The position numbers were made by a program, and so were the translations under genes. 64,000 nt of DNA from Flectonema sp. DT1601. Lineage: Eukaryota; Euglenozoa; Diplonemea; Diplonemida; Diplonemidae. This document shows, in pieces, positions 23,079 through 64,000 of the stretch. The notes under the pieces were generated by a model that worked only from the letters and a program-made list of their open reading frames with translations, was not told where the DNA came from and did not search any database. Within the stretch, counting starts at the first letter, position 1; every line of letters begins with the position of its first letter. The DNA lies in NCBI GenBank assembly GCA_964019425.1, contig OZ025849.1, positions 620,001-684,000 of the forward strand. The letters run 5' to 3'.

Positions 23079-23559
23079 ACTCGTATGGAACACTGTAATT
23101 TGTACACAATCAAAGTGAAAATTTTCTGATGCAAGCAAGGAGCTGATGGATGCTGATTCATGCTGCACGACAAGGTTCAATGATTGAGTCAGAAGATGGG
23201 TTCATGCGAAGAAATGCTGATGATGGAGCTGACAGTTGTTGATGAGGGGAAAAAATATTAGGCGTAGATGTAATTTAGATGTACTCTCTGAGGATTTAGA
23301 AACATGTCAACAACTCAAAGAATAAGGTTTATTGAGTAACCTGTCAAACCATGCTGTTGTAACTATTATGCTGATTAATTTATTATATTTTTACGTAACT
23401 CTTGCTGCACATTAGACTAATCTAGCTCAGTCTTATGTTTCTCTATTGTATTCCTTTCTATTTATGAACGAACCTTTTGGGGTCAACTTACCCCGCTCAT
23501 TAACAGGATATCGAGTGAACAGAGAATTACCCTCTCTGAATCACAACGTATCCAGTATC

Positions 23560-23591
<32 letters not shown>

Positions 23592-23595
23592 CAAT

Positions 23596-23609
23596 ATCAA
23601 GTTTTATTT
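23596..23609 (+). repeat. target-site duplication, left copy, of LINE-2 copy A
   Basis: ATCAAGTTTTATTT, repeated at 26206-26219 directly after the (AAT)-rich tail of the element. Confidence 0.8.
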
Positions 23610-35644: not shown

Positions 35645-36263
35645 CCCCCCCCCCCCCCCCCCCCACTTTCTTCCCTTTTTCGTTGTTCTTGATCTTACTT
35701 CTGCAATCCCTCTCATTTTTAGTTTGTTTGCTTGTTTGCACCATATGCACAAGTTAAGAAAAAAAAAAAACTGAACCAAGAAGTTTTTTTTAAATTTTTT
35801 TGGTATTTTTCCTCGCCTATGCGGATGAAGCTATCGGGCGGTGGCACAGCCGTCTGACTACTTCGCCTCACGGAATGCATTGTTCATTCTGTGTCTTCCC
35901 TATTGAAGCTCTGAGCTTCTCAAGGAAAGCGTGCATTCTATGTTGAGGAAAATCTGCTCTGTGTGTATGTTTTGTATCACCTGAAGAGTTATCTATTTCT
36001 TCCCCCCACACACAACAGGGTACAGACTATTAATTAAAGTGCAGGTATTCTTTTTAAATGTGTTTAGATCCTATTAAGTGATTTCTTCAACCCCCCACAG
36101 AACGAGGATATCTCTCGCATCTACCCACGCCCTCATCCCGTATTTTCTTTTTTTTAGTTCCCTACAAAGGAACCCCCTCGTTACCCCAACATCAAGGGCT
36201 GTTGTTTTTATAACTGAAAGCTCTCGTTTTGTGTGATAACAAAAAAAAACTCAAAACCAAAAA
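35645..36263. other. 5' flank of the giant gene
   Basis: A C-run (to 35664), a T-rich stretch and A-runs are present; no coding frame is supported. CTGAAAG at 36215-36221 and the preceding T-rich GTTGTTTTTATAA are a possible trans-splice acceptor. The leader before the ATG is A-rich. Confidence 0.5.
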
Positions 36264-39200
36264 ATGAGAAGTTTCGGCTTCGTGTTAGCTGCTTTGTTAC
36301 CGGTATGTCTGGCTGGTACGTACGAGCAGAATGTTCCGAAGAATGTCTTCAACGTTGATTGTCAAACGATCGTCTTTACTACCGGAGAGTGCGATTGTAA
36401 CACAGTCATCCCTGGAGCATCAATTGATGTTGAAGAAGGATATGTTAACGGTAGAGACACATTGTCATGCCCAGCCTGTGCCGGACTGGGTATTCAGACT
36501 CAGTGGATCTCCGGAACTGGTGTCTTGAAGTTGACAGGTAATGGAAAAACCATCAACGACTTCGCCAAGGCAATCGACTCCATAAGCTTTTTGACGACTT
36601 CAGGAGATGGTAATTCGAGAAGAATTACTTACAACTATGGTCACGCTCTTTACACAAGTATTACTGGTCACTTCTACGAATACTATCCAACTTCGGAGTG
36701 TTCCACCTCAGCGTGTCGCTGGGACGATGGTCAGGCGTCATGTGCCGATAAGAAACTTGATGTACTTGGGTTGGTTGGTTACCTCGCTACTATTACCAGT
36801 GCTGGTGAACGTGACATCACAAACGCCAAGATCCAAGGACACGGTTGGTTGGGAGGTTCAGATGTTGGTCGAGAAGGAACTTGGAAATGGGTAACTGGAC
36901 CAGAAGGATGTCCTCCTTATGACACCAGTGTCACTGGGGCACAACGTTCTGCATGTGACTTCGGATATCCACTTCCTGATACAAAAAATCCATGTTCTGG
37001 TCCAGATTGTGATGGAGGTACTTTAATAGGAACTGGAGCTAGTTGGTGGTTCCGCCGGTCAGGATTTGGAAACTGGGCAGGAGGCGAGCCGAATGAATAC
37101 AGCAGACATTGCGGAGGAACGTGTTTCACTACCGGAGAGGATTTCTTGCATTTCTACGGCAGTAATGGATTGTGGAATGATTACCCACACAGACACAACA
37201 GCATCGATGGGTTTATGTGTGAGTGGGGAGGTGTTGGTGAGCTCTGCATGGACAGTGGTGATGTGTTCAAATCGTACGTCCTTGTTTCTGGATGTGACGG
37301 CTTTAAGTCGCAAGACAAGTGTGAAGCACACATTCCGGTTGGATCATGTGCCTGGAATATCAATACTGGATCATGTATTCCTCATGGTTGTCACGTACAC
37401 GAAGACGAGGCTCAATGTGGTCAGGATCCACTCTGTGATTGGGATCTTACTGTGTCACCAGCAGCATGTGTAGACAACAAGTGTGCTTCATCACACACCG
37501 ATGTTAGTTCTTGTAATGGGGATCTTGTTTCTCCATGTCGATGGGACGATAACCAACCTGACGGTGCCCAATGTCAGCCACTCAACTGCGGTGACATTAC
37601 CGACATGTGCACATGTACGAAACTAGGAAACTTGTGCCTCTGGGACCCATCATCAAAGACTTGCTTGGATCCTGATCAGAGTACTTGCCCAGCTGCTGAT
37701 GTTATATTTGTAGTACCAGGTACTAAACATGCTGGAACTCAATTTGGTACTCACACAAATGGATACTACGGATTAATGGAACATCTGAGACACTGGACTT
37801 CATCAGCTCACATGGCTGGTGCTTCCGACTCCAACTACGGATTCCGTGCGGCGTATGTGACGTACGGAAGGAATGGAAAGTCGATCACTGCATCTGACAG
37901 CACGGGCGCTCCAGCCACCTTCGACAACTGTAAGACGTGGGACCCAGTTACTGGAACTACCGGAAACGACGGAGGGTTCTCTATGAACCCTCACGCTCTC
38001 AACATGGACATCAGTTTCTTGGAGAACTTCTACTGTCCTAACTGGGCTGGTAGTGGAAGCTATGCAGTCCCTGGTCTACAGACTGCTTTGAGCAGTGTTC
38101 AGGCCGCCTCAGCAAACGGTCGTAAGAAGTACGTTTTCATTGTTGCTGAGTCGAAACTCAGCGACAGTTCCACGGACTTGGCCAACGTCGTTAACCAAAT
38201 TAAGGCTGTGCCTGACACAGAAGTATTTGGAATTGTTCCTCGTGCGCTTCAGGGAAGTACTTCAACAGACGTTCAGGCTGAGGCAAAGTTGAAGCCGCTT
38301 GTGACATCTGACAAGCACATCGTGAACGTTGAGTTGGCGAATTTGGGAGATGAAGTTCTCTCAAAACTCTGTGACGCTTCGACAACTTTCGGCAGCGTTA
38401 TTTCTACGAAATCTGATGTCGGATGTCGCCAAAGGGACGAGACGGATTGTAAGGGTGCTCACCTTTGTCTGTGGGATATTTCGAAGTCACCATCGTGTGT
38501 TAACAGTCCGTGCCTACAGAAGTGTACTGAGGTTGAATGTAATTCCCAGGCCGGTTGCCAATGGGATGCCGCTCTCGGTGTTTGTGAGAAGGATATTGTC
38601 GACTGCTCACTCCACAACGGTGACAAGGCTGCGTGTGAGAACAACGAGAACTGCGTTTTCGAACCAGTTTGGGCTGCCGCTGATACTTGTGCAACCAACC
38701 CGTGTAGGGACTTGACTGATTCCACAAGTTGTGTTGCTGAGACGGAAACTGTATCGGCACCATGTGTTGATCCTCCTGGTAACCCGGATTATTGTAAATT
38801 AAGTGTTTGTGAATATGATGATTCAAAGTCTCTGAAGTGTAATGTTAAGAAGTGTCTTCAGAAGGACCAGACGAAGTGTGAGGCTGAAGATGGATGTCTT
38901 TGGGAGCCACTCCAAACACCTCCGCCAACTGGACCACCATCGACTCTTGTGTCGTACTGTGCTGAGAAGAAATGCGACTACCCGAGTCAGGCGGCGTGCG
39001 TTGCGGATCCGAAGGGTCAGTGTCAATGGGACGGTGGATCTCAAACATGTAAGGAACTTCCATGTGTTCACAACCCTGACGAGCTGACTTGTGACAATGA
39101 TCCAGTGTGTCACTGGGATATTTCTACTAACCCACCAGGATGTATTGAGACTCCTTGTGGTAAGAACAAGAATCAAGGTGATTGTGAAGCTTCTGGTGAC

Positions 39201-42200
39201 TGCATGTGGAACAACGATAACCCTGCGAAGCCTTACTGTGAAACATTGAACTGTGGAGAATTGAAGACTGCTTGTGAATGTCAGTCGTCTCCGCACTGCA
39301 CATGGCACCAGGCTGGTCAGTACTCCCACTGTGTTGATCCACTGTACTCAACTTGCCCTGATTTAGATATTGGTTTCATTATTGATGGTTCAGGATCCAT
39401 GTCTCTTCGGTTTGGAAACCATCCTCACGGATTCTTTGCTCTCATGAACATGCTTCAAGATTGGGTGAAGACTCTTCCGCTTACTGGTGAAGATCACACT
39501 GTCGGTGCTCAGTCAACTGTCAGAGGAGGAGGTTTCAGAGTTTCGTTTATTCAGTTCTCAAAAGCTGATGCTTCTCCTGCTGAAGACCATCCAACGAACT
39601 GTGCTATTGGTGCTTGCACTGATGGTAAATTATCAGGTATGAGATCTGAGCTTCTCGGTGACATTCAGTGGCATGAGACGAACTACCAGAGTCAGTGGAC
39701 GTACATCCACGATGCGCTTTTGGATGTTGCGGAAAACACCTTTGACCCGCTTCACTCACCGGCACACAGAGAACACATTGTGATCATTTTGGCTGACGGT
39801 GGTCTCACTGACTACGACGGTGATGCCTGCTCCTGGGGAGTCTGTGGAATTTGCCCATGGGGATGTGATTCATCGTACAAACCTTCCTACAGAACTATTC
39901 TTGACGAGGGTACCGCGAAGTTAGTGGCCGACAACGTCACTGTTTTCGGTGTCGTAATCAGAAGATTCGCTTCTTCGAACTTTCAGGACCAGAACGCTGA
40001 GAACAAATTGAAGCCACTTGTTTCCTCACCTCGTGATGACCACTTTTTGAGTCTGCAAATGGATGAGATTCCTGACAAGCTTTTGAAGTCACTTTGTGAT
40101 CCAAACAGCAAGTTCGGTGCCATCGTGGCACCCGCTGTCAACGTGGATCACTTCCCGTGTGCTTCATGGGGATACCGCGACGAGTGTATGTCTGATGAGA
40201 CTTGTGAGTGGGTGACACCAAAACTGACAACTTGTGACGCTACCACCGGATGCCCTCAATTAAATTGCCAAGAGTTACCAATTCATTACCGAGGAATCTA
40301 TGAATGTAATAAATGCAGATTAGCTCGTACCGTTATCACTTGCGGAGCCAATGTGGCGTCTTCCATTGTGGGAACCTGTCGTCAGACTGCCTGCATGGCA
40401 TGCTGTAACAGCACTTGCTGTGATGCGAAACCGGAGTGCTCATGGAACACAACTGATTCTACGTGTACCCGCGATGTCTGCGAACACCCGAACAAGGACG
40501 ACTGCGAGAACGATGCCAACAACCTTTGCAAGTGGGACCCTGTGACAAACGATTGCAGCAAGAAGGAGTGCGAGGCGACGTTTGAGCAACACAAGTGCGC
40601 AGCTAACCCTGAGTGCTTGTGGGACGCTGGTGTAGATCCTCCGGTGTGTCTGCCAATTCCGAAGTGTGATACTTACACTGCTGAAGCACAGTGTGTTACT
40701 GATGTACAGTGTACTTGGAATTGTACTGATTCGGATTGCAGATACACGCTCTGTCCGTTTGCGAATGAAGTTGACTGCCTGTCATCAACTGACTGCGAGT
40801 GGAGCGGTACCATTTGTGTTGAGAAGCCGTGCCGCTACAACACCAGCAGTGAATGTGCCGCTGGATGTGACCCAAACTGCAAGTGGGACAACAAGACGAG
40901 CACTGAGCACTGCAGACAGGACCACTGCAAGAAGCATGCTGGCAACCCAGCCTGTGATAAGGATCCACGTTGTCACTGGAGTGGTACAACTTGTGATGAA
41001 GACTATTGTGCTGATTACGATAACGATGAAGTTGAGTGCAAGGATGACCCAAGATGTACTTGGAGTAAAGACGCATCACTCGGATGTGTTTTGACGAACT
41101 GTTCAAAGGACCACGGGATCCCATCAACTGCTTCGTGTGCTCCTGATGTGAACTGTAAATCAGGTACAGATGCTACTGGTGACTACTGTGAACCAACTCA
41201 GTGTCATGATTTGGATTCATGTGAGTGTCCACAGAAGGCTGGCTGCTACTGGGATCCAAATGGAGGGGCCACCAACTCTGGAGAATGTAAGGAGGATGCT
41301 GACAGTCTTTGTCCTGACTTGGATGTCGTGTTCTTGCTCGACGGTTCTGGTTCGATGAGCGCTCGCTTCGGATCTCATCCCCATGGATACCAAGGTATGA
41401 TTGAAGTACTTAAGGATTGGGTAAACACTATACCTCTTACTCATGAACCTGCTCATACTACATCAACTGTTACTGGTGGAACATTCCGACTTGCATTCAT
41501 CCAGTTTGCTAAGACTTCTGAGTACTGGGCATGCAAGAATGATGGATCTGGATGTAACAGAAACACTTGGGGATGCAATAATCCGGATGTTTCACAACTT
41601 CCTGGTGCAAAGTGCGCGGATGGTACTTTCTCAGGAGATTTAACTGAGCTTCAAAATGATTTGACATGGCACGAGAGGAATTACATGGGTTCAGTCACTT
41701 ACTTGACAAAGGCTTTGGAAGATGCTATTCACGTATTTGATGACTCTCCTGCAAACAGAAAGCATGTTGTTGTTATTATTACCGATGGTTCTTTATATCC
41801 TAGACGTCGTCAAGCTATAGAAATTCCTCCTCTCCGTGCTAAGTTAGACGCGAAGGATGTCATCACGTTTGGTGTTGTCGTCAGAAAGGGGCAAAGGCAC
41901 ACGAAGGACGATATCGATGCTCAGGACACGTTGAAGCCGATTACTAGCGACCCTCATGATGATCATTTTGTAAACGTTCCACTTGATGACATGTTGGATC
42001 ACGTGTTTAAAGACTTTTGTGATCCAGCGAGTCCATTTGGTAAGGCTGTGTCTACTGGAGGAACACGTGCTGCAGTCCTGCCGTGTTCGAAGTGGGGTTT
42101 GGAGTCTGAGTGCCACGCTGACGCAAGCTGTGAGTGGACGTCGGCCTTGCCAGCAACTTGTGTCGAACCTAGTGGATGCAAGAATCTGAACTGCCTGGAA

Positions 42201-57200: not shown

Positions 57201-60200
57201 ATCAACAGCTGCGTGAACAGCAACTACGGGGAGTGTCCGACTCTGGACATCGTGGCGATCGTCGACGGTTCGGGATCGATGTCGCAGTCGTTCGGACGTC
57301 ACCCTCACGGATACTACGGACTGGTGTCAATCTTGAAGGACTGGGTGAAGAACCTTCCTCTGTCCGGGGAGCTCGCGAACATTGGTGCGGCGTCGACGCT
57401 GACTCAGAAGACGAGAGTTGGGTTCGTTCAGTTCTCGGGTCACCCGCAATACAGCGATCCTGCGACTGGTGTGTGGAGCGGTCCGATCGTGAACGACGTT
57501 GCGACGACGCCGATGGGAACTGGAGCCGGGGGAAGGATCTCGGGATCCATCACCGAGTTGAACGGAGACCTGGCGTGGCACCAGTCGAACTACCTGGATG
57601 CCGGTACCTACATCGCGAACGCGTTGATTACCGCGAATGACATGTTCTCGAAGCAGTCGCCGCAGGACAGCCGTACCAAGGTTTTGATCATCTTCACCGA
57701 CGGAGTGATCTCTGACATCGACAAGACGTCGACTCCGAAGTCTTCACTGGAAGGGAAGGGAGTTATGATCTTCGGTATAATGATCCGCAGAGGTGATATT
57801 CCATCAAGCGTTGACCTGACGGCTGAGGAGACGCTGAAGAAGATTGCTTCGGAACCGAACCGAGTGTACAACCTCCAAATTGATGACATTCCGGACGTTC
57901 TGTCGAAGGTGTGCGACCCTACCGACAAATGGGGAGCTGAGATTGCGAAGGTTCCAAAGTCGCAGACGGGAGTGCACTTGCCTTGTCAGTTCTACGTTGA
58001 GAAGAAGCCTTGTGATGTGGACCATGGATGTCTGTGGTCGGATGTGCTGTCTTCGTGTACCGACAGTGTGTGCATCGGGTACTGCAGCGAGCAGGATTGC
58101 GTTGCGGACACGGCGAACCATTGCAAGTGGGAAAACGACGAGTGTGTGAAGTTCAAGCCTTGCTCGTACACGCAGAAGGTGCAGTGCGAACAAGACACCG
58201 AGTGCCGATTCAACGACACGTCGAACGAGTGCGGTGAGAAGCCTTGCACGCACAGCGACGAGAACAGCTGCGTTGCGGAGACGACGTACGAGTGCGAGTG
58301 GGTGCCGGGTACCCAGGAGTGCATTGAGAAGCCTTGCGTGCAGCTGACGGACTCGGGGAGCTGCGCGGCGGACGCGCAGTGCGAGTGGGACTCGGCGTGC
58401 GACAAGGATGTGTGCATCAAGAAGGTGTGCCAGCACGTGGCGATGGACCAGTGTGAACTGGACACGCTCTGCGCGTGGGTGGGGAGCGCGTGCCAGCGCA
58501 GGACTTGTGGAAACCTCGTCGACGAGAAGTGCTGCGTTGAGGACGAGCAATGCTTCTGGGACGTGTCTGCCGCACCGGGAGTTTGCAGAAAGGAGCCGTG
58601 TTTGGAGTACAACTCGACGAACTGCAACGACCAACGGGAGTGCCGTCTGGACACTTCCAACAACTGCAAGCCGAAGGACTGCGTGAACTACGACCAGTGC
58701 TCTTGCGAGGGTGACGCCGACTGCTTCTGGATCGCGGCGGCCCAGACTTGCACGTCGTCAGCTTACGGACAGTGCCCGACGATGGACATCGTTTTGCTGA
58801 TCGACGGTGGGGATTCGATGAAGAAGGCGTTCGGGCGTCACCCGTTTGGATTCTACGGGTTGACGAACGTGTTGAGGGACTGGATGATGACTCTTCCGTT
58901 GAACGGGGAGTCGGGATCGGTCGGTAGCAACTCGAGGAGCGGGACGGACCAGGCGAGAGTGGCGATCGTGCAGTTCGCGGGAAGTGAAATCTGGGCGCCC
59001 GGGAACGAGCGTCAGTACCGAGTGTCGCCACCGGGAGTCGGAACTGGTGGGAGACTGTCGGGAATGAGGTCGGAGTTGGTTGCCGACTTGGCTGACCACG
59101 AAGCGAACTTCATGGGGGCGGACGCGGCCCTGCAGCCGATCCCGAGGAAGACGTACTTGCTTGGAGGTCTTGCGAAGGCGGCGTCCCTGTTCAAGAACTC
59201 GCCTGTCGACCGGACGAAGATCCTCATCATCTTCGCTGACAACGCGATGGACGACAAGAGCGCGTACGCAACGGCGCAGTCGGAATTGAACCGGCTGCAA
59301 GTGAACGTCTTCGGGGCGGTTGTGCGTCCGTACGACGTCCGCGGACCAATCGACACCGGTGCCGAAAGCGCGTTGACGACGGTGACGTCGAGCGTGCAGT
59401 CGGAGCACACGGTCAACAAGCAATTGGACGAGTTGGCTGCGGTGCTCGAAGGTTTGTGCGATCCAAGCACCCCGTGGGGCAAATACATCGCCAAGAAGGA
59501 TGGTGGTGGTAGACAGCCGTGCCCGAACCACAAGGACAAGACTGTCTGCAACAAGGACTCCGGATGTGCTTGGCATGACCAGACCCTGAGCTGTGGTGAC
59601 ACGCCGTGTTTGACCCACTGCGCGGAGGCAAACTGCACTGCGGACACCATCAACACGTGTGTCTGGAATTCAACAGTTGGTTGCGAGAAGGAGAAGACTT
59701 GCGACCACACCAACCCGGACGACTGCAGAGTCGACGACAAGTGTCAGTACGACGACGTCAGCAAGAGCTGCGTCGCCAAGAAGTGTGACCACGAGGCGGA
59801 GCAGGGTTGCCTTGCGGACCCTGACGTGTGTGTGTGGAACAACCTGAACAAGGTTTGCGGTGAGAAGCCTTGCAACATCCACGAGGAGCTTGAGTGCAAC
59901 AATCACATCAACTGCACGTGGAACACGAGTTCGCGGACATGCAACGTCGACAAGTGTCTGTGGACCAGCGTCGACGAGTGCAACACCGATCCGTACTGCG
60001 TGTGGGAAGGTGCAGGTGCAGGTGGTGCGGGAAGTGCTGACCCTTGCGTGCAGAAGAAGTGCACGGAGCACATGACGGAGTTGGAGTGCGAGTTGGAAGC
60101 AGACTGCGACTGGGACACTTCAATCTCACCGGGGATCTGTCTGGAGACGTACTGCAGACGCTACGGAAACGACAGCGGGTCGTGTGACTCCGATGGAAAG

Positions 60201-63200
60201 TGCATGTTCGAGAACTCGACGGATACTTGTGTGGACAAGGATTGTTCGACGTTTGAAGTTTGCAGGTGTCAGAAGGACCCGGAGTGCTTCTGGTCGGCGG
60301 ATGCGTCCCCTGCGAGCTGCAAGGCTGCGCAGTTCGGAGAATGTCCACAACTGGACATCGTTGTGATGATTGACGGGTCGGACTCGATGAATTTGGTGTT
60401 CGGACGTCACCCGTCTGGTTACGTTGGAGTTATCGAGATGTTGCGTTCTTGGGTATATGGACTTCCGCTTTCTGGTGAGAAGGCTGGAGTTCCGTCGACG
60501 AAGAACGGAAACACCAGGGTCGGGTTTGTTCAATTCGGAGGTCTCGCACAGTTCCCAACGCAGAGCGCGAGGAAGGCACCTGCGTCTGTGGGATCGGAGG
60601 GGCGGTTGAGCGGAGACAAGATGCAGGCTTTGGGGGACCTGTCGTGGCACGCGAGCAACATTGTCGGGGGGGAGACGTACATCGCGAGGGGTCTGGACAT
60701 GGCGGCGGACATGTTCATGGCGTCGCCGAAGGATGGCAGGAAGAGGGTTCTGATCATCCTGAACGACGGAAAGATCTTGGACGCGGACTCCCTGACGACA
60801 CCTCGAAGCAGACTGATCCAAAAGAACGTGTACACGATGGGGGTTGTGATCAGAAGGTTCGATGCGCAGTCACCTGTGGACATGGATGCCGAGGGAGCTC
60901 TGAAGAAGTTGACGTTCGACCCGGTTACGAAGCAACCTGCCGACGATATGATTACGAACGTGGTTTTGGATGATTTGATGGCGAAGTTGAACTCCCTGTG
61001 CGACCCGACTCAGTTGTGGGGACAGCGCACCGTCGACCGTGTTGGACAGCAGGTCGGTGTGCACCGTCCGTGTGGAAACTACCAGGACAAGGTGATGTGC
61101 GGGAAGGATGCGGGTTGTGTTTGGAGAGACGTGATCGATGCGTGCGTCGACACTCCGTGCACGCTGCACTGCCAGGAGGGTGAGTGCAACACCGACGTGG
61201 CGAACAAGTGTGTGTTCGATTCCAGCAGCCAGGTTTGCTCGAAGACCGACACCTGCGCTGCGCACGACCAGGCGGCATGCAGCTTGGACGCCGAGTGCAA
61301 GTTCAACACGACCTCGAACGGGTGTGAGGAGAAGCCTTGCAAGCACACCAACGAAGGGTCGTGCGTGGCGGACAAGACGTACGAGTGCGAGTGGGTGCCG
61401 GGTACCCAGGAGTGCATTGAGAAGCCTTGCGTGCAGCTGACGGACTCGGGGAGCTGCGCGGCGGACGCGCAGTGCGAGTGGGACTCGGCGTGCGACAAGG
61501 ATGTGTGCATCAAGAAGGTGTGCCAACACGTGGCGATGGACCAGTGTGAACTGGACACGCTCTGCGCGTGGGTGGGGAGCGCGTGCCAGCGCAGGACTTG
61601 TGGAAACCTCGTCGACGAGAAGTGCTGCGTTGAGGACGAGCAATGCTTCTGGGACGTGTCTGCCGCACCGGGAGTTTGCAGAAAGGAGCCGTGTTTGGAC
61701 TACAGTGCGGATACTTGCAACGACTACAAGAATTGCCTGTACGACAGCGGGTCCTCGAGTTGCCTGCCGAAGGACTGCAGCAAACACGACCAGTGCGGTT
61801 GTGGAAGTGACGCCGACTGCTTCTGGGTGCAGGCAGTTCAATCGTGTATCCCACAGATCTACGGGCAGTGCCCGACGATGGACATCGTTTTGTTGATCGA
61901 CGGTGGTGTGTCGATGAAGAGCACCTTCGGACGTCATCCGGTTGGGTTCTACGCGTTGACGAACGTTCTCAGGGATTGGATGATGACGCTCCCACTGAAC
62001 GGGGAGTCGGCGAACGTTGGGGTGAACTCGGTTCCGGACACGGAGCAGGCGCGTTTGGCGATCGTGCAGTTTGCCGGTAGCACTGTGTTCGACAAGCCTG
62101 GGAACGACGGACAATTCCGAGTGTCATCAGTTGGTACTGGGGGAAGACTCTCTGGAATGAGATCCGAATTGATGGCCGATTTCAAGGACCACGAGGACAA
62201 CTTCATGGGGGCAAACTCAGCTCTGCAGCCAACTCCAACGAAGACCTACTTGTTGGGTGGTTTGAACAAGGCGGTCAGCATCTTCAAGACTTCACCGGTT
62301 GTTCGGATGAAGGTCTTGATCGTGATCACCGATGACGAACTCGATGACAAGGACATGTACCAGACGGCGCGTGCTGAGTTGGCGCAGATGAACGTGCAGA
62401 TCTTCGGAGCGGTCGTGCGTGGATTCGATGCCAGCGGACCATCGGACCAAAATGCCGAGAGCACCCTCCGCAAGGTGACGACCGAGTCGCAGCTTGAGCA
62501 CACGGTGAACGTTCAGATTGATGGTTTGGAGGCGGTGTTGAAGAGCATCTGCGACCCATCGCTGAACTGGGGTAAGGACATTACGAAGTACAAGGTTGTG
62601 AAGGAGAGGCAACCTTGCCAGCTGTACCACGACAAGACCAAGTGTAACAAGGACGCTGGGTGCACCTGGTACGATGACACCCTGAGCTGTGGAGACTCGC
62701 TGTGCCTGACTCACTGCAAGTCGGGCAACTGCACTGCCGACCGGGGGAACCTGTGCGTCTGGAACGCGACGACTGGATGCGAGAAGGAGAAGGTGTGCGA
62801 CTTCAGCGCAGCCGAATGCGCGAACCACCCGGAGTGCGGTTTTGACGGGAAGAACTGCGTTGCGAAGACGTGTGACCACGAAAACGAACAGGGATGCCTG
62901 GCTGATTCAGACACCTGCGTGTGGAACAACTTGCAAAAGTCTTGCGGAGGGGTGCCTTGTGTGTACGACGCGGCTGACGAGTGCAACAAGGACGTGAACT
63001 GCACCTGGAATGCGACGGGACTGAAGTGCGAGGTGGACAGGTGTCGCTGGACGACGAAGGGTGAGTGCGAGTCTGACGTGTTCTGTGAGTGGAAGAACCG
63101 CCGAAACCAGCCGGAGGAGTGTGTGCAGAAGATCTGCGTTGAGCACGCGGACGAAAACTCGTGCAGGAGAGACGAGAACTGCGAGTGGGACACTTCGATC

Positions 63201-64000
63201 GCCCCGGGGATCTGTACCGAGACGTACTGCAGGACGATCTGTGGGGACTCTTGTACCTCGACGGAAAGGATTGCCTGCAATGCCGATGAAAGGTGCATGT
63301 CGAGGGACAACAACGGAACGACGAACTGCGTGAACATGAACTGCGACGAGTTGGATGCGTGCGCTTGCCACGGCGACCTTGCGTGCTTCTACCTCGCGGA
63401 CGAACAGGCGTGCGTCAACAAGAAGTACGGAGCGTGCCCGACGATGGACATCGTTTTGGTAATCGACGGGTCGGGTTCGATGAGCAACTCGTTCGGTAGA
63501 CATCCTCACGGATTCGACGCGATGATCTCTGGGCTTTCTGAGTGGATCGCGACCCTGCCGCTGAGCGGGGAGTCTGCGAGCGTGGTGAACCCGGCGCCGG
63601 ACACTCGCAAGATGAGGGTCGGTGTGGTTCAGTTCAGCGGACGAGTTGAGGCGGGTTCGGTTGTCGATGCGGCGCTGAAGCCACCCGCGGGAGTCGGTTC
63701 GAGCGGGAGAATCACGGGAGCTCTGCAGGAGCTGAAGGATGATCTCGAGTGGCACAGCTCCAACTACGCTGCGGAGGGAACGTACGTCGCGGAAGCTCTT
63801 GGGGTGGCGGCGACGATGTTCAAGAACACGCCGGTTGGCGCGAAGAGAGCGGTGATCATCATCACCGATGGGAAGCTTCAAGACACGCCTGCTGAGATGA
63901 CGCCGAGAAGGTCGGCTTTGGAGACCCTGGGGGCGCAGGTCTTCGGTATCGTCGTGAGGAGGTTCCCATCGCAGACCGACGTGGACAGGGATGCCGAGGC
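36264..64000 (+). CDS. giant secreted cysteine-rich protein with vWA, C-type-lectin and EGF-like modules (3' end outside window)
   Basis: One frame stays open from ATG 36264 to the window end (more than 9,245 codons); I confirmed the phase at 13 points. MRSFGFVLAALLPVCLAG is a signal peptide. Order of modules: C-type-lectin block 1 (~36300-37240); 13 von Willebrand A modules starting at ~37686, 39355, 41310, 43143, 44727, 46297, 53057, 54641, 57234, 58772, 60342, 61868 and 63435; 26 EGF-like modules (~47230-51530); C-type-lectin blocks 2 (~51700-52600) and 3 (~55850-56825). Between the A modules lie ~35-40-residue units of the type C-x(5-8)-C-x-W-D-x(6-9)-C. vWA and lectin folds bind metals, glycans and proteins, so an extracellular adhesin, cell-coat or prey/substrate-binding role is inferred. 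No membrane anchor is seen within the window. Confidence 0.9.
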   Translation, partial: MRSFGFVLAALLPVCLAGTYEQNVPKNVFNVDCQTIVFTTGECDCNTVIPGASIDVEEGYVNGRDTLSCPACAGLGIQTQWISGTGVLKLTGNGKTINDFAKAIDSISFLTTSGDGNSRRITYNYGHALYTSITGHFYEYYPTSECSTSACRWDDGQASCADKKLDVLGLVGYLATITSAGERDITNAKIQGHGWLGGSDVGREGTWKWVTGPEGCPPYDTSVTGAQRSACDFGYPLPDTKNPCSGPDCDGGTLIGTGASWWFRRSGFGNWAGGEPNEYSRHCGGTCFTTGEDFLHFYGSNGLWNDYPHRHNSIDGFMCEWGGVGELCMDSGDVFKSYVLVSGCDGFKSQDKCEAHIPVGSCAWNINTGSCIPHGCHVHEDEAQCGQDPLCDWDLTVSPAACVDNKCASSHTDVSSCNGDLVSPCRWDDNQPDGAQCQPLNCGDITDMCTCTKLGNLCLWDPSSKTCLDPDQSTCPAADVIFVVPGTKHAGTQFGTHTNGYYGLMEHLRHWTSSAHMAGASDSNYGFRAAYVTYGRNGKSITASDSTGAPATFDNCKTWDPVTGTTGNDGGFSMNPHALNMDISFLENFYCPNWAGSGSYAVPGLQTALSSVQAASANGRKKYVFIVAESKLSDSSTDLANVVNQIKAVPDTEVFGIVPRALQGSTSTDVQAEAKLKPLVTSDKHIVNVELANLGDEVLSKLCDASTTFGSVISTKSDVGCRQRDETDCKGAHLCLWDISKSPSCVNSPCLQKCTEVECNSQAGCQWDAALGVCEKDIVDCSLHNGDKAACENNENCVFEPVWAAADTCATNPCRDLTDSTSCVAETETVSAPCVDPPGNPDYCKLSVCEYDDSKSLKCNVKKCLQKDQTKCEAEDGCLWEPLQTPPPTGPPSTLVSYCAEKKCDYPSQAACVADPKGQCQWDGGSQTCKELPCVHNPDELTCDNDPVCHWDISTNPPGCIETPCGKNKNQGDCEASGDCMWNNDNPAKPYCETLNCGELKTACECQSSPHCTWHQAGQYSHCVDPLYSTCPDLDIGFIIDGSGSMSLRFGNHPHGFFALMNMLQDWVKTLPLTGEDHTVGAQSTVRGGGFRVSFIQFSKADASPAEDHPTNCAIGACTDGKLSGMRSELLGDIQWHETNYQSQWTYIHDALLDVAENTFDPLHSPAHREHIVIILADGGLTDYDGDACSWGVCGICPWGCDSSYKPSYRTILDEGTAKLVADNVTVFGVVIRRFASSNFQDQNAENKLKPLVSSPRDDHFLSLQMDEIPDKLLKSLCDPNSKFGAIVAPAVNVDHFPCASWGYRDECMSDETCEWVTPKLTTCDATTGCPQLNCQELPIHYRGIYECNKCRLARTVITCGANVASSIVGTCRQTACMACCNSTCCDAKPECSWNTTDSTCTRDVCEHPNKDDCENDANNLCKWDPVTNDCSKKECEATFEQHKCAANPECLWDAGVDPPVCLPIPKCDTYTAEAQCVTDVQCTWNCTDSDCRYTLCPFANEVDCLSSTDCEWSGTICVEKPCRYNTSSECAAGCDPNCKWDNKTSTEHCRQDHCKKHAGNPACDKDPRCHWSGTTCDEDYCADYDNDEVECKDDPRCTWSKDASLGCVLTNCSKDHGIPSTASCAPDVNCKSGTDATGDYCEPTQCHDLDSCECPQKAGCYWDPNGGATNSGECKEDADSLCPDLDVVFLLDGSGSMSARFGSHPHGYQGMIEVLKDWVNTIPLTHEPAHTTSTVTGGTFRLAFIQFAKTSEYWACKNDGSGCNRNTWGCNNPDVSQLPGAKCADGTFSGDLTELQNDLTWHERNYMGSVTYLTKALEDAIHVFDDSPANRKHVVVIITDGSLYPRRRQAIEIPPLRAKLDAKDVITFGVVVRKGQRHTKDDIDAQDTLKPITSDPHDDHFVNVPLDDMLDHVFKDFCDPASPFGKAVSTGGTRAAVLPCSKWGLESECHADASCEWTSALPATCVEPSGCKNLNCLELSGTQAQAYTCEQCVLVGSVVTCSAGTQNTGTGQCLQSDCSTACIVSTCANKDGCVWNGGLCQEEQCDYANRTACENDAICKWNTTKSPGECEKKQCTHFAAGPCNGDKNCTWDDATQKCYPNNPECDKIKNDALCLAEPSGKCTWNCITDGCEVKKCVYTSSVDCTNIASCQWDNAGQVCQEKHCVWTKENECNADAVCNWENNNCVVNDCYQHGTELLCVQDDKCEWDTANCGICNEKYCQKYNNKAACDSDIKNECRFDDATQSCVDKNCVDYNNGALYSAGASCPCKSDATCQFDTTTTPPLCKATEFENCPNLDIAITFDGSCSTNNAFGQHPSGFEGMLAAVHDWIVTAPLTGEAAGKTSTDTNGRMRLAINQYSSQVHVADCPNCACDNLDFPINGVNTTKCGKLSGDLGELKQDLGWHASAAGKATQTCESRLKPVEEFATEVFKQSPSTRMKILIVVTDGVMTDKDELATTTAALVAQGVKIFAVNVMKGASATNTDDVALESLESKIVTTPAAQNAQGSDLDSLSELFDTFCDPSGKWGATVTAGTTGTTQVKKCSDLTTVLLCDAKLTCDWDGTSLLCGDHACFTHCNETTCLSDPQNTCNWNATSQSCEKIPCNEVTKQDECEKHTECTWDVTKSPQCTEDPCPARTEDACIQLNECQWATDPSPAKCEPIPCNFGNDSVACNAEPGCEFDDVCPDAVDQLCRLKPCAQDKHLTLAGCQADRLCVWNSSNQCEQAVCVQYPDEKCCDHFSNCHWDVSQSPAVCSEKYCPRTHDNQVECDKDTKCMWNSTDGTCIEKNCVELEECRCRADAECFWDHQHHTPHCSDSKFGECPVLDVVFLIDASSSMGWRFGRHLNGFYALMEIFRDWMMTVSLTGEKGGEDKLGTVDGIRIGFIQFSGSNPRRGRRGFAWAKKTPANTGTGGRLSGDRNELHVDIDWHWNNFYRWGRMIEKGLTMAGDVFDAAHATNGRKRILIIISAGRIYDPSKVANARKVLNQENVQTFGVVIRRQAARGLADRAAESTLKRITSDIHDEHYMNIQMDEVRTDMLDLLCDPNGPWGHLIVDQTKTQAGVHRPCTHYQGNAQTCAADPGCIFSPTTNLCVDSPCSHHCGEVQCTADNVNLCVWNSTTGDCWKDTECAHTTKNTCEGDRVGCNWDDTRDPKCEKTPCTYDSETNCLLDQTCEWTTDPVTAAVGCTPIKCLYNDSSTCGNDPECEWRTNICTGTVDCEEKKCTFTSQTVCLKDPACEWENSKCQTQPCAHYLEESCCDKVDECKWDVTTTPAVCDEAKCPKYPDPTQCNVDTECLWTANATGVEKCLPLDCSKLTDRCGCDSNPKCYFKPTPTGGMCTVVEFGECPTLDIAVIISGSGSMGWRFGKHPHGFYALIEVLRDWVVTLPLNGESGSVGINSKRNNGGVRVGFIQFSGKYSASEAKTVTPSVGTGGRLSGINKELQDDLDWHHNNFYNKGTRIKKGLELAVDMFHDSRMDDDRQRVLIIFGDDEILDWTQLAAARSDLDKEEVQVFGIVLRRQSQHTLTDVAAQDTLKPITSDPHDEHFENVLIDEVSSLIKDICNPNGPWGHLIVNHIPTPTTGHHLPCPDYKVQANCVGDAGCVWSDAGIACVNSPCLLHCDSTNCTLAAASHNCSWNATAGECFKEPVPDCHCKFDTNDDTYNKQKCDANAECFWNAPLSKCEVDECSANNAGAVCAAAGQTCTDPNKEPCSLHDWTCECTPPATGSKVADVAECVLDECIVMGCPTCANGTCPTGQTCKDPNPSASSTNDWMCECDDPATGSAIIGVADCKIDECTYDCASCEKNTCATKGQSCLDPDQSSTSLNDWMCVCAPPATANKTVGLADCRFNECDLVTVCDTNGQKCVDPDLEKKDDWKCVCKDPAVGASIGKPAICVLNECNTTCATCANDTCTSQNQVCDDPNKSETSTGDWTCTCVPPATGQATGNNADCLIDECTYTCPTCANTTCSDDSQACLDADKTSTSLGDWECICPPPSNATQLTGIANCSIDECDLHRDICTNQGQLCHDPNGLKQGDWMCICVPPSNGTNVGDVAACKIDECVATCPTCANDTCSAQGQECNDPDPSADVTGDWTCKCVPPAVGNATTNAAHCVIDECTFTCDTCANTTCSDVTQECFDKDTTSTSKNDWECVCPPPSNATQVTAVANCSFDECDLHGDTCTRHGQVCNDTGLLTLDDWECICVPPATGSNVGNVAACQIDECIADCPTCAGTNCSDAHQVCVDDNMNATSTGDWHCDCVPPLNGTAVVDAASCTIDECVSVCPTCANDTCSGVGQTCFDPDKSATNTSNWICTCVPPAYDFAVAQAAHCVVNECHDHEKTCHAAGQTCEDPDTTPSASGDWVCKCVPPATNAGTTQQGGVAMCDYPGDCSDTMVSDVCTNAGQVCDDPTDIMTPGDWTCECVPPAILAMGSNPVQGAPSDCVHDECVLVCPTCADTGSGNICSKHGQVCKDSSTSSLSLSDWVCECIPPEKPVDPSAVAVAKPAECQLNECIETCATCQNGKCNGQTCEDPNMDPTITNDWTCTCIAPGVGVATGKEAACVCDECLTTTVCGNQTCFDTNTSCPAGNDFTCTCQPPSIDFDVAAPAVCKYDECKEKSGECNAVGQTCNDPNLTVAGDWECECIPPQLPDGRNSTNDKHAVCKLDECVQTCPTCANNTACGSQTCKDPNTDSTMVGDWTCTCVEGVGFATGKQAECVCNECLNTMICENANQTCYDADKSCPPKNDFDCECQPPSADTAVAAAAICTYDECIDHKASCTQVGQVCKDPDTAVGGNWICECVAPQVQQGNTVQGRPVTCAIPECDVVGCPTCANDTCSGAGQTCFDPNTDPSSLRDWTCTCELPGVGFATGKPADCVCNECLNSTTCSDADQTCHDADKSCPPRNDFKCECKFPSSDSAVGQAVAVCTNPECEKNKAVCASVRQTCVDNNITRDNDWECVCPLPSLGIGLMQPAACTLVECDQTCSTCANDTCSSVGQTCSEVSTDPTDVNDWECVCKPPATGRASGAAAHCERDECKEHGDKCTLNCKTGSLDCAQKCVDPDKSVTSLNDWKCICEPPSSNYAVGKSAKCSVDPCVADNEEACLNDNAGCEWTELPTRTCKKIPCEFDNPASCNSTADCDWVSTSGSRGGLGSISYDNVNAVSPFASVTCDGISFTGSCSCNMLLGAAGEKGGAQVTIEDGYSKGSDSLECTGCAGAGIESVWNANTGTLILKKSAGAGATARELVEAIKTVAFRTSSSDGNLRGLTWNLGNAMYSKRTSHYYRHFTAAECNGAGGGCTWEEAQNMCSSKSLFGLTGYLMSVTSGAENSLAKGKLEGSGWIGAMGSGNSWKWVTGPDATKGPSPCRSFTGGASSCDFAGVDSGKGYPIGSGVADQFVAAQVLGLAAYNQWDTSEPTQSGRFASFAVPSGEWSTPGSSSDGFICEWGEIGNACLTTADDLWGTVDLVAGVCKEKRCTESSQAECEVDPFCNFVGGNVDPCVPKPCTEYPDEKSCDKDERCDWDTSVAPGLCSETVCEKLKTAELCEKHPDCDWDTLTGHCKEQICPVNTDRCSCNEEPKCFWSDSADAAARQCVDSKYALCPVMDMIIMFSGTKNMAQVFGRHPVGFDAVTSILRDWVSTMYLTGERYTVNPSVANGGGVRVGLVQFAGELAPSTTVVTKAVRTSPTGVGESGQLSGDMNELLEGITYHESNYLMGQGAYIVPALEKASSMFTSTPIGRKRVLIVLTGSTIKDIDQVQPSQNKLETQGVEIFGAVIRRMDTKTAEDIRAEAAMKPLATDPAVDHSDGIKVDDLEAILHGICDPNSKWNVATSPAVPQAGVHKPCAQYGSQKDCTADKGCVYSGVFQKCEASPCIAHCGEVQCNADNVNLCEWDAANQTCWKRELCPHHNSTACEDDPACDWNSSASTVEDKCVERECNYKSEQECAAEVLVKCDWDSASRTCGLTPCQHANETSCTADASEHCEWDVCVASHNSADACRKDRCLDYGAEYSNCTQDPMCRWDALAGNGKCLRKTCTEFGDERCCNDQDGCFWDISVSPALCSEKLCESLKQDQGACGTEPTCEWDSAKNTCVDKDCSVMERCDCEKDVDCFWRSANGTESCTWKSYGECPAMDIVLLLGGSSTMGLPFGRHPKGFNGMTEALKKWVATIPLSGEAASVGLGSKPTGIRVGVVQFGGENKDGGNPGRADAKTAPVGVGAAGQFSGDVAELKADLDWQEDNFYGSGMMIANGLGVAERMMRDYSPQDGRKKVVVILADGKMYDTDTVSGTIASMQVQGVEVFGAAIRRQPVSTLVDQNAVASLRTIATPPSSGHVANIVLDELVDTTKSLGGICDSNAFFGKLLVDAQPDTTVAVGGQHKPCDQHLEKSPCNIDPGCVWFDAALSCVETLCMQHSCNQSSCEQDVANGCVYETATHRCWKEPKDCSLYTNITKCAEDAECQASSDKTTCVDKKCDHDDEKGCIADSDLCVWDNLQSICGERPCSATTEADCKLATGEQCVWNTLLPVNGTTESFAKGKPMQPFNSVGTTGYPEDCSAGMFAGGSCSCATTLSEAHVGVEEGYTPSKDVFECPKCASLGVNTEWNSATGIMTLRAAGSAAGGTADTFLKAIREVTFTTTSDDGNARKLTWNLGGAFYSSNTGHYYRYFAKSECGGVQGGCRWDEAKTACESDSRMIFGLRGYLLSINTETETKALMGRISGEGWIGATDAGANEGEWRWMTGPEALTGTTPCGAFGNNRASCDVSIDLASGKLVGADAAKGVSIGSGVGSRFTAVSYANWAIGQPDDSHTACPGSCAAWGEDFAQYSIPSGTWRDAPGDASDVAGFVCEWGGVGSLCVQSNAFGSKFVTAGVCEEKKCTTDIESECKRDPYCKWENNTCGIKKCAEYPDEVTCEQDEICDWNPAVSPAICEQNPCTRYLDNSTCEADSNCMVDPTGKAKSLCVDKDCNEYDKCKCKNDVECYWKINSCVNSNYGECPTLDIVAIVDGSGSMSQSFGRHPHGYYGLVSILKDWVKNLPLSGELANIGAASTLTQKTRVGFVQFSGHPQYSDPATGVWSGPIVNDVATTPMGTGAGGRISGSITELNGDLAWHQSNYLDAGTYIANALITANDMFSKQSPQDSRTKVLIIFTDGVISDIDKTSTPKSSLEGKGVMIFGIMIRRGDIPSSVDLTAEETLKKIASEPNRVYNLQIDDIPDVLSKVCDPTDKWGAEIAKVPKSQTGVHLPCQFYVEKKPCDVDHGCLWSDVLSSCTDSVCIGYCSEQDCVADTANHCKWENDECVKFKPCSYTQKVQCEQDTECRFNDTSNECGEKPCTHSDENSCVAETTYECEWVPGTQECIEKPCVQLTDSGSCAADAQCEWDSACDKDVCIKKVCQHVAMDQCELDTLCAWVGSACQRRTCGNLVDEKCCVEDEQCFWDVSAAPGVCRKEPCLEYNSTNCNDQRECRLDTSNNCKPKDCVNYDQCSCEGDADCFWIAAAQTCTSSAYGQCPTMDIVLLIDGGDSMKKAFGRHPFGFYGLTNVLRDWMMTLPLNGESGSVGSNSRSGTDQARVAIVQFAGSEIWAPGNERQYRVSPPGVGTGGRLSGMRSELVADLADHEANFMGADAALQPIPRKTYLLGGLAKAASLFKNSPVDRTKILIIFADNAMDDKSAYATAQSELNRLQVNVFGAVVRPYDVRGPIDTGAESALTTVTSSVQSEHTVNKQLDELAAVLEGLCDPSTPWGKYIAKKDGGGRQPCPNHKDKTVCNKDSGCAWHDQTLSCGDTPCLTHCAEANCTADTINTCVWNSTVGCEKEKTCDHTNPDDCRVDDKCQYDDVSKSCVAKKCDHEAEQGCLADPDVCVWNNLNKVCGEKPCNIHEELECNNHINCTWNTSSRTCNVDKCLWTSVDECNTDPYCVWEGAGAGGAGSADPCVQKKCTEHMTELECELEADCDWDTSISPGICLETYCRRYGNDSGSCDSDGKCMFENSTDTCVDKDCSTFEVCRCQKDPECFWSADASPASCKAAQFGECPQLDIVVMIDGSDSMNLVFGRHPSGYVGVIEMLRSWVYGLPLSGEKAGVPSTKNGNTRVGFVQFGGLAQFPTQSARKAPASVGSEGRLSGDKMQALGDLSWHASNIVGGETYIARGLDMAADMFMASPKDGRKRVLIILNDGKILDADSLTTPRSRLIQKNVYTMGVVIRRFDAQSPVDMDAEGALKKLTFDPVTKQPADDMITNVVLDDLMAKLNSLCDPTQLWGQRTVDRVGQQVGVHRPCGNYQDKVMCGKDAGCVWRDVIDACVDTPCTLHCQEGECNTDVANKCVFDSSSQVCSKTDTCAAHDQAACSLDAECKFNTTSNGCEEKPCKHTNEGSCVADKTYECEWVPGTQECIEKPCVQLTDSGSCAADAQCEWDSACDKDVCIKKVCQHVAMDQCELDTLCAWVGSACQRRTCGNLVDEKCCVEDEQCFWDVSAAPGVCRKEPCLDYSADTCNDYKNCLYDSGSSSCLPKDCSKHDQCGCGSDADCFWVQAVQSCIPQIYGQCPTMDIVLLIDGGVSMKSTFGRHPVGFYALTNVLRDWMMTLPLNGESANVGVNSVPDTEQARLAIVQFAGSTVFDKPGNDGQFRVSSVGTGGRLSGMRSELMADFKDHEDNFMGANSALQPTPTKTYLLGGLNKAVSIFKTSPVVRMKVLIVITDDELDDKDMYQTARAELAQMNVQIFGAVVRGFDASGPSDQNAESTLRKVTTESQLEHTVNVQIDGLEAVLKSICDPSLNWGKDITKYKVVKERQPCQLYHDKTKCNKDAGCTWYDDTLSCGDSLCLTHCKSGNCTADRGNLCVWNATTGCEKEKVCDFSAAECANHPECGFDGKNCVAKTCDHENEQGCLADSDTCVWNNLQKSCGGVPCVYDAADECNKDVNCTWNATGLKCEVDRCRWTTKGECESDVFCEWKNRRNQPEECVQKICVEHADENSCRRDENCEWDTSIAPGICTETYCRTICGDSCTSTERIACNADERCMSRDNNGTTNCVNMNCDELDACACHGDLACFYLADEQACVNKKYGACPTMDIVLVIDGSGSMSNSFGRHPHGFDAMISGLSEWIATLPLSGESASVVNPAPDTRKMRVGVVQFSGRVEAGSVVDAALKPPAGVGSSGRITGALQELKDDLEWHSSNYAAEGTYVAEALGVAATMFKNTPVGAKRAVIIITDGKLQDTPAEMTPRRSALETLGAQVFGIVVRRFPSQTDVDRDAE
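36300..37240 (+). other. C-type-lectin block 1 of the giant protein
   Basis: A pre-domain with GASIDVEEGY and FAKAIDSISFLTTSGDGNSR is followed by a C-type-lectin fold: GHGWLGGSDVGREGTWKWV, NWAGGEPNE (calcium/sugar-binding region like WxxGEPN) and LWNDYPHRHNSIDGFMCEW. The EPN tripeptide is the classical mannose-type signature. Confidence 0.75.
37686..46953 (+). repeat. first cluster of six vWA modules separated by C-x-W-D cysteine units
   Basis: Each A module runs ~220 residues from C-P-x-L-D-(I/V) to L-C-D-P. The shared core is FGxHPxGFxxLxxxLxDW, then LSG near the middle, then V(F/T)GVV(I/V)R. Metal-site variants: module 1 PGTKHA (lost), 2 DGSGSM, 3 DGSGSM, 4 DGSCST, 5 DASSSM, 6 SGSGSM. Modules 2-5 therefore keep D-x-S-x-S, while 1 and 6 do not. 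Confidence 0.8.
47230..51530 (+). repeat. array of 26 EGF-like cysteine modules
   Basis: A unit of ~50-60 residues has the plan (D/N)EC-x(3-8)-C-x-TCAN-x-TC-x(3)-GQ-x-C-x-DP-x(5-9)-DW-x-C-x-C-x-PP. I counted 26 copies of the DW/DF/NW-x-C-x-C core. Several alternate with a shorter form (VCDECLTTTVCGNQTC...CPAGNDFTCTC). The motif C-A-N-x-T-C puts an N-glycosylation sequon between two cysteines in many copies. Confidence 0.8.
51700..52600 (+). other. C-type-lectin block 2 of the giant protein
   Basis: It has the same plan as block 1: a pre-domain (AQVTIEDGYSKGSDSLEC, AIKTVAFRTSSSDGNLR), then GSGWIGAMGSGNSWKWVTGP, YNQWDTSEPTQSGRF and GFICEWGEIGNAC. The EPN tripeptide is replaced by SEPT, so sugar preference may differ. 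Confidence 0.75.
53057..55318 (+). repeat. vWA modules 7 and 8 of the giant protein, both with altered metal sites
   Basis: Module 7 (53057-53726) has FSGTKNM and module 8 (54641-55318) has GGSSTM where D-x-S-x-S is expected. The rest of the fold (FGRHPxGF, VGxVQF, VxIVLx or VVVILADG, EIFGAVIRR) is kept. Confidence 0.75.
55850..56825 (+). other. C-type-lectin block 3 of the giant protein
   Basis: The pre-domain (AHVGVEEGYTPSKDVFEC, AIREVTFTTTSDDGNAR) is followed by GEGWIGATDAGANEGEWRWM, YANWAIGQPDDSH and VAGFVCEWGGVGSLC. Here the sugar-site tripeptide reads QPD, the galactose-type order of the C-type-lectin family, in contrast to EPN in block 1. Confidence 0.75.
58283..58606 (+). repeat. near-identical 324-nt tract, copy 1
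   Basis: It matches 61376-61699 with one synonymous difference (CAG at 58431-58433, CAA in the other copy). It encodes cysteine units around VPGTQECIEKPCVQLTDSG. Confidence 0.95.
61376..61699 (+). repeat. near-identical 324-nt tract, copy 2
   Basis: See 58283-58606. The offset is 3,093, a whole number of codons (1,031), so the duplication keeps the frame. Confidence 0.95.

Follow-up and report, generated by a model that had tools for sequence, protein, structure and literature searches.

Gene structure and lineage

A 64,000-bp stretch of contig OZ025849.1 (C70 below; positions 620001-684000), here called the window, carries on its plus strand the larger part of a giant gene for a predicted modular surface protein; coordinates past the window end are given as C70 position minus 620,000. 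The gene was singled out by a model that saw only the letters (the sequence-only reading), and its claim of one giant open frame was borne out: starting with the ATG at 36264, it spans 9,245 codons up to the end of the window and 12,769 codons in the contig, where its stop ends at 74573. The further claim that neither stop nor intron interrupts it holds across the window, but the gene is not a single-exon one. The stop sits inside intron 1, and a gene model with three short introns near the 3' end, all with GTATGT at the start and CAG at the end, puts the length of exon 1 at 38,192 bp and that of the protein at 13,141 residues, 1,123 of them cysteines. Introns, which the reading itself had listed as evidence against it, are thus present. 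They are confined to the extreme 3' end, however, and their removal yields a longer protein than had been claimed, one that belongs to a family. The gene comprises the following features:

36143..36157, plus strand: candidate spliced-leader acceptor (polypyrimidine tract and AG), 107 nt 5' of the ATG
36264..64000, plus strand: window part of exon 1, residues 1-9245 of 13,141
74455, plus strand: end of exon 1 (extended coordinates)
74456-74558, plus strand: intron 1, 103 bp, GT-AG
74713-74813, plus strand: intron 2, 101 bp, GT-AG
75355-75497, plus strand: intron 3, 143 bp, GT-AG
75866-75922, plus strand: transmembrane helix, residues 13086-13104 (hydropathy scan)
76036, plus strand: end of the stop codon (gene model)
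78195 to the contig end at 85062: second tandem copy, cut by the contig end; 2,289 residues, all identical to copy 1

The three-intron model is supported by the agreement of three relatives. A copy on contig C31 has the three splice sites as in C70 and also encodes 13,141 residues without an indel, its introns 1 and 2 measuring 136 and 161 bp versus 103 and 101 bp; a paralog on contig C3 runs from a signal-like start to a similar helix and tail in one intronless frame of 12,426 codons; and the homolog P0002, labelled a Trinity transcript at its source, aligns through all three intron sites with small gaps only. The exons 3' of exon 1 carry on the Cys-rich pattern in other frames. Extension of the locus to its stop codon, a check proposed with the original claim, revealed the C-terminal transmembrane helix, and the hydropathy scan gave one strong transmembrane peak each in the C70, C3 and P0002 proteins. 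The hydrophobic end of the 12,769-codon frame was not accepted as a membrane anchor, being a read-through of intron 1. The short C-terminal tail carries an F[ED]MEDG motif and is alike in two paralogs and in one homolog of another source. Judged from the sequence, the giant reading frame is genuine and forms exon 1 of a putative surface-protein gene, with one conserved frame per copy.

The tract at 36143..36157 is identical across the four compared copies of its subfamily and may be a spliced-leader acceptor site. An exact spliced-leader pattern of kinetoplastids and diplonemids has 718 matches in the searched genome (89.5 Mb, 92 contigs) and none in the reversed control, which supports the earlier guess of a euglenozoan; tandem arrays of ~610 and 623 bp and dispersed copies are among the matches listed. 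The published leader 'Euglenozoa 14' is one that we take to be from Diplonema; the string 'diplonem' is absent from the text of its source paper. Three of our copies that were read share 38 identical bases and match that leader at 36 of 39 positions, as it is given in the accessible part of the source (PMC3795323). By its sequence, the leader is identified as euglenozoan and is probably diplonemid. Homologs with the EukProt prefixes Sspe, Rhum and Hpha presumably come from the diplonemids Sulcionema, Rhynchopus and Hemistasia. The accessible text on the Diplonema papillatum genome reports GT-AG introns and gene clusters in one direction, and in the main text no word starting with von Willebrand, lectin or adhesi occurs (PMC10161547). 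Dispersed 38-base copies of the leader exon with differing flanks (L031, L032 and L033) are consistent with retroposed trans-spliced mRNAs.

Domain architecture

The part of the protein encoded in the window contains von Willebrand factor A (vWA) domains, some with an intact metal ion-dependent adhesion site (MIDAS), together with lectin-like, EGF-like and C-x-W cysteine units:

36264..36314, plus strand: signal-peptide-like N terminus MRSFGFVLAALLPVCLA (hydropathy and eye)
36318..37298, plus strand: beta-sandwich and C-type-lectin-like block 1, residues 19-345
37686..38393, plus strand: vWA 1, residues 475-710, MIDAS lost
39354..40118, plus strand: vWA 2, residues 1031-1285, MIDAS intact
41310..42041, plus strand: vWA 3, residues 1683-1926, MIDAS intact
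43143..43847, plus strand: vWA 4, residues 2294-2528, MIDAS intact
44727..45413, plus strand: vWA 5, residues 2822-3050, MIDAS broken in C70, intact in the C31 copy
46299..46970, plus strand: vWA 6, residues 3346-3569, MIDAS without the first Asp
47316..51563, plus strand: 26 EGF-like units, [DN]EC...C...C...[DN][WF]xCxC (motif count)
51726..52703, plus strand: beta-sandwich and C-type-lectin-like block 2, residues 5155-5480
53058..53738, plus strand: vWA 7, residues 5599-5825 (profile match)
54642..55334, plus strand: vWA 8, residues 6127-6357 (profile match)
55896..56873, plus strand: beta-sandwich and C-type-lectin-like block 3, residues 6545-6870, Pfam Lectin_C above cut-off
57234..57935, plus strand: vWA 9, residues 6991-7224, MIDAS intact
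58773..59480, plus strand: vWA 10, residues 7504-7739 (profile match)
60342..61022, plus strand: vWA 11, residues 8027-8253, MIDAS intact
61869..62573, plus strand: vWA 12, residues 8536-8770 (profile match)
63435..64000, plus strand: vWA 13, residues 9058-9286, MIDAS intact, extending beyond the window end

The signal peptide, the 13 vWA modules, the three lectin blocks and the many C-x-W units of the sequence-only reading were all recovered, the first as a signal-like N terminus. The full protein has 19 vWA domains, 13 of which begin in the window, and 169 C-x-W motifs. The vWA identity (PF00092) is carried by both a profile match and an integrin-I-like fold, the AlphaFold model of vWA 9 matching integrin I domains; a PDB sequence search with one vWA found no relatives at 1e-3. 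The lectin blocks are best described as lectin-like: block 3 exceeds the cut-off of Pfam Lectin_C (PF00059; 24.9 versus 22.6 bits), block 2 falls below it (20.2 bits) and block 1 is unlisted, while blocks 2 and 1 are 46% and 42% identical to block 3, and block 1 matches CLEC4M in the PDB (E 8e-4). The model of the lectin half has a mean predicted local distance difference test score (pLDDT) <60 over residues 161-290 and gave no Foldseek match at E<=0.001.

The 26 EGF-like units stand as a count of the [DN][WF]xCxC motif, but a Pfam scan of the array (47178-51650) gave no family at E<=1. With part of the array alone, JAG1-like_EGF2 was the sole match (E 0.14, 12.7 versus 27 bits), a piece of the array found no relatives in the PDB at 0.1, and a C-terminal EGF unit stayed below the cut-offs of EGF_2 (19.9 versus 22.1 bits) and EGF_Teneurin (21.5 versus 24.3 bits). 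An assignment of the C-x-W units to the Paramecium surface antigen family (PF01508) was rejected, with none of 12 units matching at E<=0.1 and sub-threshold scores only in one N-terminal piece (14.6 bits) and in the homolog P0010 (20.8 versus 21.2 bits); one C-x-W array had no PDB relatives at E<=1. The gene also contains an internal duplication (58194-59164 and 61287-62256), with a long stretch identical between the two units.

A complete MIDAS (DxSxS, T, D) was found in 9 of 19 vWA domains of the C70 protein, 8 of 19 in C31, 16 of 19 in C3, 8 of 10 in P0001 and 3 of 11 in P0002, one vWA domain split over two rows being counted once. Because 10 of the 19 C70 domains lack the full site, many vWAs may be structural only, which weighs against an adhesive protein. 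With the site also missing from 8 of 11 domains in P0002, the protein could be mainly structural, forming a protective, non-adhesive coat or hair in which lectin-like and vWA modules self-assemble the fibre rather than bind outside ligands. The strong conservation of cysteines favours this possibility, as do the near-identical array copies described below if they reflect a need for high dosage. We nevertheless consider a purely structural role unlikely, given the largely intact sites of the C3 paralog, the retention of lectin-like blocks at the tip and the constraint on MIDAS loops reported below.

Gene family and relatives

A census of the genome contigs with a 328-residue N-terminal and a 359-residue C-terminal query revealed at least 14 copies in which both ends are present, spread over seven contigs (four on C10, three on C3, two each on C56 and C23, and one each on C70, C31 and C59), mostly in tandem. 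An additional C23 copy, with a frame of 10,470 codons, was matched by the C-terminal query but not by the N-terminal one, and the second copies on C70 and C31 are truncated by the contig ends. The C59 copy lies in an open frame of 18,591 codons, 17,438 of which were read. The C-terminal query matched in one piece in the C10, C3 and C56 copies and in two pieces in those of C70, C23, C31 and C59, the split marking an intron in the latter. Over the part read, C59 shows 56% identity to C70 within the C-terminal 9,100 residues, the corresponding figure for C3 being 41%. The adjacent C70 copies, 2,158 bp apart, are identical across 2,289 residues. The possibility that C70 and C31 are haplotypes was rejected, since a comparison of ~10 kb flanking the C31 array with the C70 flank gave no match >300 bp other than a gene fragment of 614 bp. 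This fragment, ~575-1,187 bp upstream of the first C31 copy, is 99.8% identical to the gene interior at 65630-66243 and is possibly a trace of unequal recombination.

A search of other sources with residues 1-3600, able to return proteins of ~5,100-16,200 residues, yielded nine proteins among 745 candidates. Eight of these (P0001-P0008; recorded at 5,867-6,761 residues, a length that may be incomplete for some) carry the vWA profile. P0001 is 42% identical over residues 20-3682, P0002 has its C terminus, helix and tail in common with the C70 protein, and P0003-P0006 have four vWAs each, followed by EGF-like units in P0003, P0004 and P0006 as far as seen. The EukProt transcript P0010 has block 1, C-x-W units and a vWA in the same order as C70.

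A search with block 1 that could return proteins of ~180-570 residues gave 141 proteins among 1,595 candidates. Among the best 120 of these 141, the top 12 are EukProt transcripts and proteins from long ENA contigs, followed mostly by metagenomic proteins without a name, along with more EukProt entries and with proteins of named bacteria. The named bacteria are chiefly marine Bacteroidetes, and their proteins cover about half to nine tenths of the query. The C-type-lectin proteins of Aquimarina, Maribacter and Lutibacter have the same beta-sandwich and lectin block; four aligned bacterial proteins run through both of its halves, and the three that were scanned matched Lectin_C, with Ig_7 in one, and nothing else. 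Block 1 (36318-37298) has counterparts in marine Bacteroidetes lectin proteins such as P0024, P0035, P0038 and P0046, and its similarity leaves room for a possible transfer between bacteria and diplonemids.

Related blocks also occur elsewhere in the genome. A long tandem gene array at C37:23139-140117 has 28 matches of most of the lectin-like block and four fragments; its genes and three copies on C40 carry a beta-sandwich/lectin-like block 45-50% identical to block 1, mostly in frames of ~550-630 codons, with two of ~2,000. Another giant family is represented by two 10,407-codon frames (C6:1110956 and C6:1146077) with a block 43% identical to block 1. A vWA match at C18:875269-875601 lies within a 21,670-codon frame, the longest among the matches listed.

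Selection on the gene copies

The C70 and C3 proteins are 47.7% identical over 12,062 aligned codons, with proportions of synonymous (pS) and nonsynonymous (pN) differences of 0.78 (saturated) and 0.37, and 1,017 of 1,027 aligned cysteines are conserved; none of the 178 amino-acid changes between C70 and C31 falls on a Cys. Between the C10 and C56 arrays, pN/pS was ~0.1 over 1,203 of ~12,470 codons (0.13 in vWA outside the loops, 0.02 in the MIDAS loops and 0.08 in the rest), the MIDAS loops being the most constrained class, contrary to what a purely structural coat would suggest. On these figures, the family is maintained by selection. The claim of a single modular extracellular giant accordingly finds support in intact copies, selection, the signal-like N terminus, the one transmembrane helix and a transcript-derived homolog sharing the C terminus.

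A functionless open frame or an assembly artefact might be suspected from the near-identical tandem copies and from the two contigs that stop inside a copy, where assemblies fail, and for C23b versus C23c pN/pS is 1.02-1.14 in each of the three classes within the first 3,300 residues, which fits relaxed constraint in that part. We give this explanation almost no credence: purifying selection preserves the frame in independent arrays, introns 1 and 2 differ in length between C70 and C31 although both coding sequences have 13,141 codons and no indel, and homologs exist in other sources. For the family, a chance frame or artefact is refuted by C70/C3 frame conservation and the C10/C56 ratios.

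Between C70 and C31, overall pN/pS was 0.49, with changes concentrated in the N-terminal vWAs and, there, near the MIDAS: the ratio was 1.68 in the MIDAS loops, where 42 nonsynonymous and 7 synonymous changes were counted, 0.62 elsewhere in the vWA and 0.34 outside. The loop excess (Fisher p 0.0002 versus outside, 0.017 versus the rest of the vWA) is post hoc, because the clustering was noticed in four domains before the loop limits were set; a coarser split into N-terminal vWA and N-terminal rest gave p 0.12. Across ten pairs of five copies, the loop ratio ranged from 0.86 to 4.85 over at most the first 3,300 residues, two pairs having no synonymous change, and within C10 two comparisons had 3 nonsynonymous and 0 synonymous loop changes and one had none. 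These patterns could mean that in C70, C31 and C23 positive selection diversifies the metal-site face of the N-terminal vWAs while homogenisation keeps the scaffold alike from one tandem copy to the next. If so, a unicellular eukaryote would possess, in these arrays, a repertoire of giant fibres that recognise prey, self or a partner. Such diversification seems quite doubtful: an independent loop test at three other vWAs, C10 versus C56, gave the opposite result (1 nonsynonymous to 13 synonymous, or 2 to 13 with the other two C10 copies; ratio 0.02-0.04).

Proposed function

The interpretation that we favour, and regard as somewhat probable, is a family of type I membrane proteins, each a long, disulphide-ribbed, adhesive cell-coat fibre, tandemly amplified in a diplonemid-like euglenozoan. 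While the predicted anatomy and the family can be read directly from the genome, a role in adhesion or in a hair coat would fit the domain content. The protein would enter the secretory route and fold as a long rod (very roughly 0.4-0.6 um, by our own estimate), in which disulphide-ribbed C-x-W and EGF-like units space the vWA domains. Its C terminus would keep it anchored, with a lectin-like block at the free end and vWAs along the rod; ligands of the tip block and the metal-binding vWA faces may be glycans or proteins carried by food, the substrate or neighbouring cells, and the tail motif may link the protein to sorting or the cytoskeleton. Many such fibres could make up the hair coat of the apex, flagellar pocket and flagella in some diplonemids. 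A glycocalyx and a hair coat at these three sites are described from electron microscopy of two Diplonema species in the accessible text of PMC5845003.

Several points weigh against an adhesive coat fibre. The same text names a mucilaginous coat, rather than the hairs, as what attaches sessile cells (PMC5845003), and for one Lacrimia species the accessible part of its report describes the plasma membrane as naked (PMC10653844). Confidence in the lectin half of the model is low, with no fold match to a solved lectin, and P0001 stops before the transmembrane part. The lineage placement comes from the spliced leader and homologs, not from rRNA, and the transcript support from homologs of other sources only. 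We still favour the adhesive fibre, with the purely structural coat as its main rival.

The apicomplexan TRAP/MIC2 adhesins combine one or two vWAs with thrombospondin repeats. The C70 protein resembles them in having vWAs, a single transmembrane helix and a short tail, but is far larger, with 19 vWAs, a C-x-W and EGF-like stalk and lectin-like blocks. Chlamydomonas FMG-1B is a very large type I flagellar glycoprotein proposed for adhesion and gliding; the C70 protein, likewise a predicted type I membrane protein of very large size, is larger. A receptor of either kind in the flagellar membrane, binding the substrate outside while a motor pulls the tail inside, is improbable here. No thrombospondin type 1 repeat was listed in scans that covered residues 1-9245 (E<=0.01, in a scan that also missed Lectin_C), 12 window units (E<=0.1) and residues 12712-13141 (E<=1); moreover, the tail has no Trp, and a flagellar location would be conjecture.

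Instead of a fibre on the plasma membrane, the protein might be secretory or extrusome cargo that is discharged toward prey or a host. In two Diplonema species, sessile as well as swimming stages have tubular extrusomes according to the accessible text of PMC5845003, and YQDF in the tail could be a sorting motif, whereas Lacrimia vacuolata is without extrusomes according to the available part of PMC10653844. A soluble cargo would need no conserved transmembrane helix and tail, and we judge this explanation very improbable.

In the open-licence PMC literature, the protein family, its module combination and its scale were not found among the matches listed. Hemicentin, SVEP1/polydom and collagen VI are long animal extracellular rods of vWA and, partly, EGF-type modules, and the C70 protein resembles them in this respect. 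The individual modules are already known, and the family is a new one of modular membrane-anchored surface proteins. Both the protein, with 13,141 residues, and the 38-kb exon that encodes almost all of it are far larger than is usual in eukaryotes, and a sibling copy has a frame of 18,591 codons. The gene is a test case for the transcription, trans-splicing, folding and sorting of a 1,123-cysteine protein. For a group of marine flagellates with little-known surface proteins, the family also supplies a specific candidate molecule for the hair coat and for adhesion.

Elsewhere in the window, positions 19229-25873 hold non-LTR retrotransposon-like frames (endonuclease, reverse transcriptase and RNase H) and a second reverse transcriptase frame.
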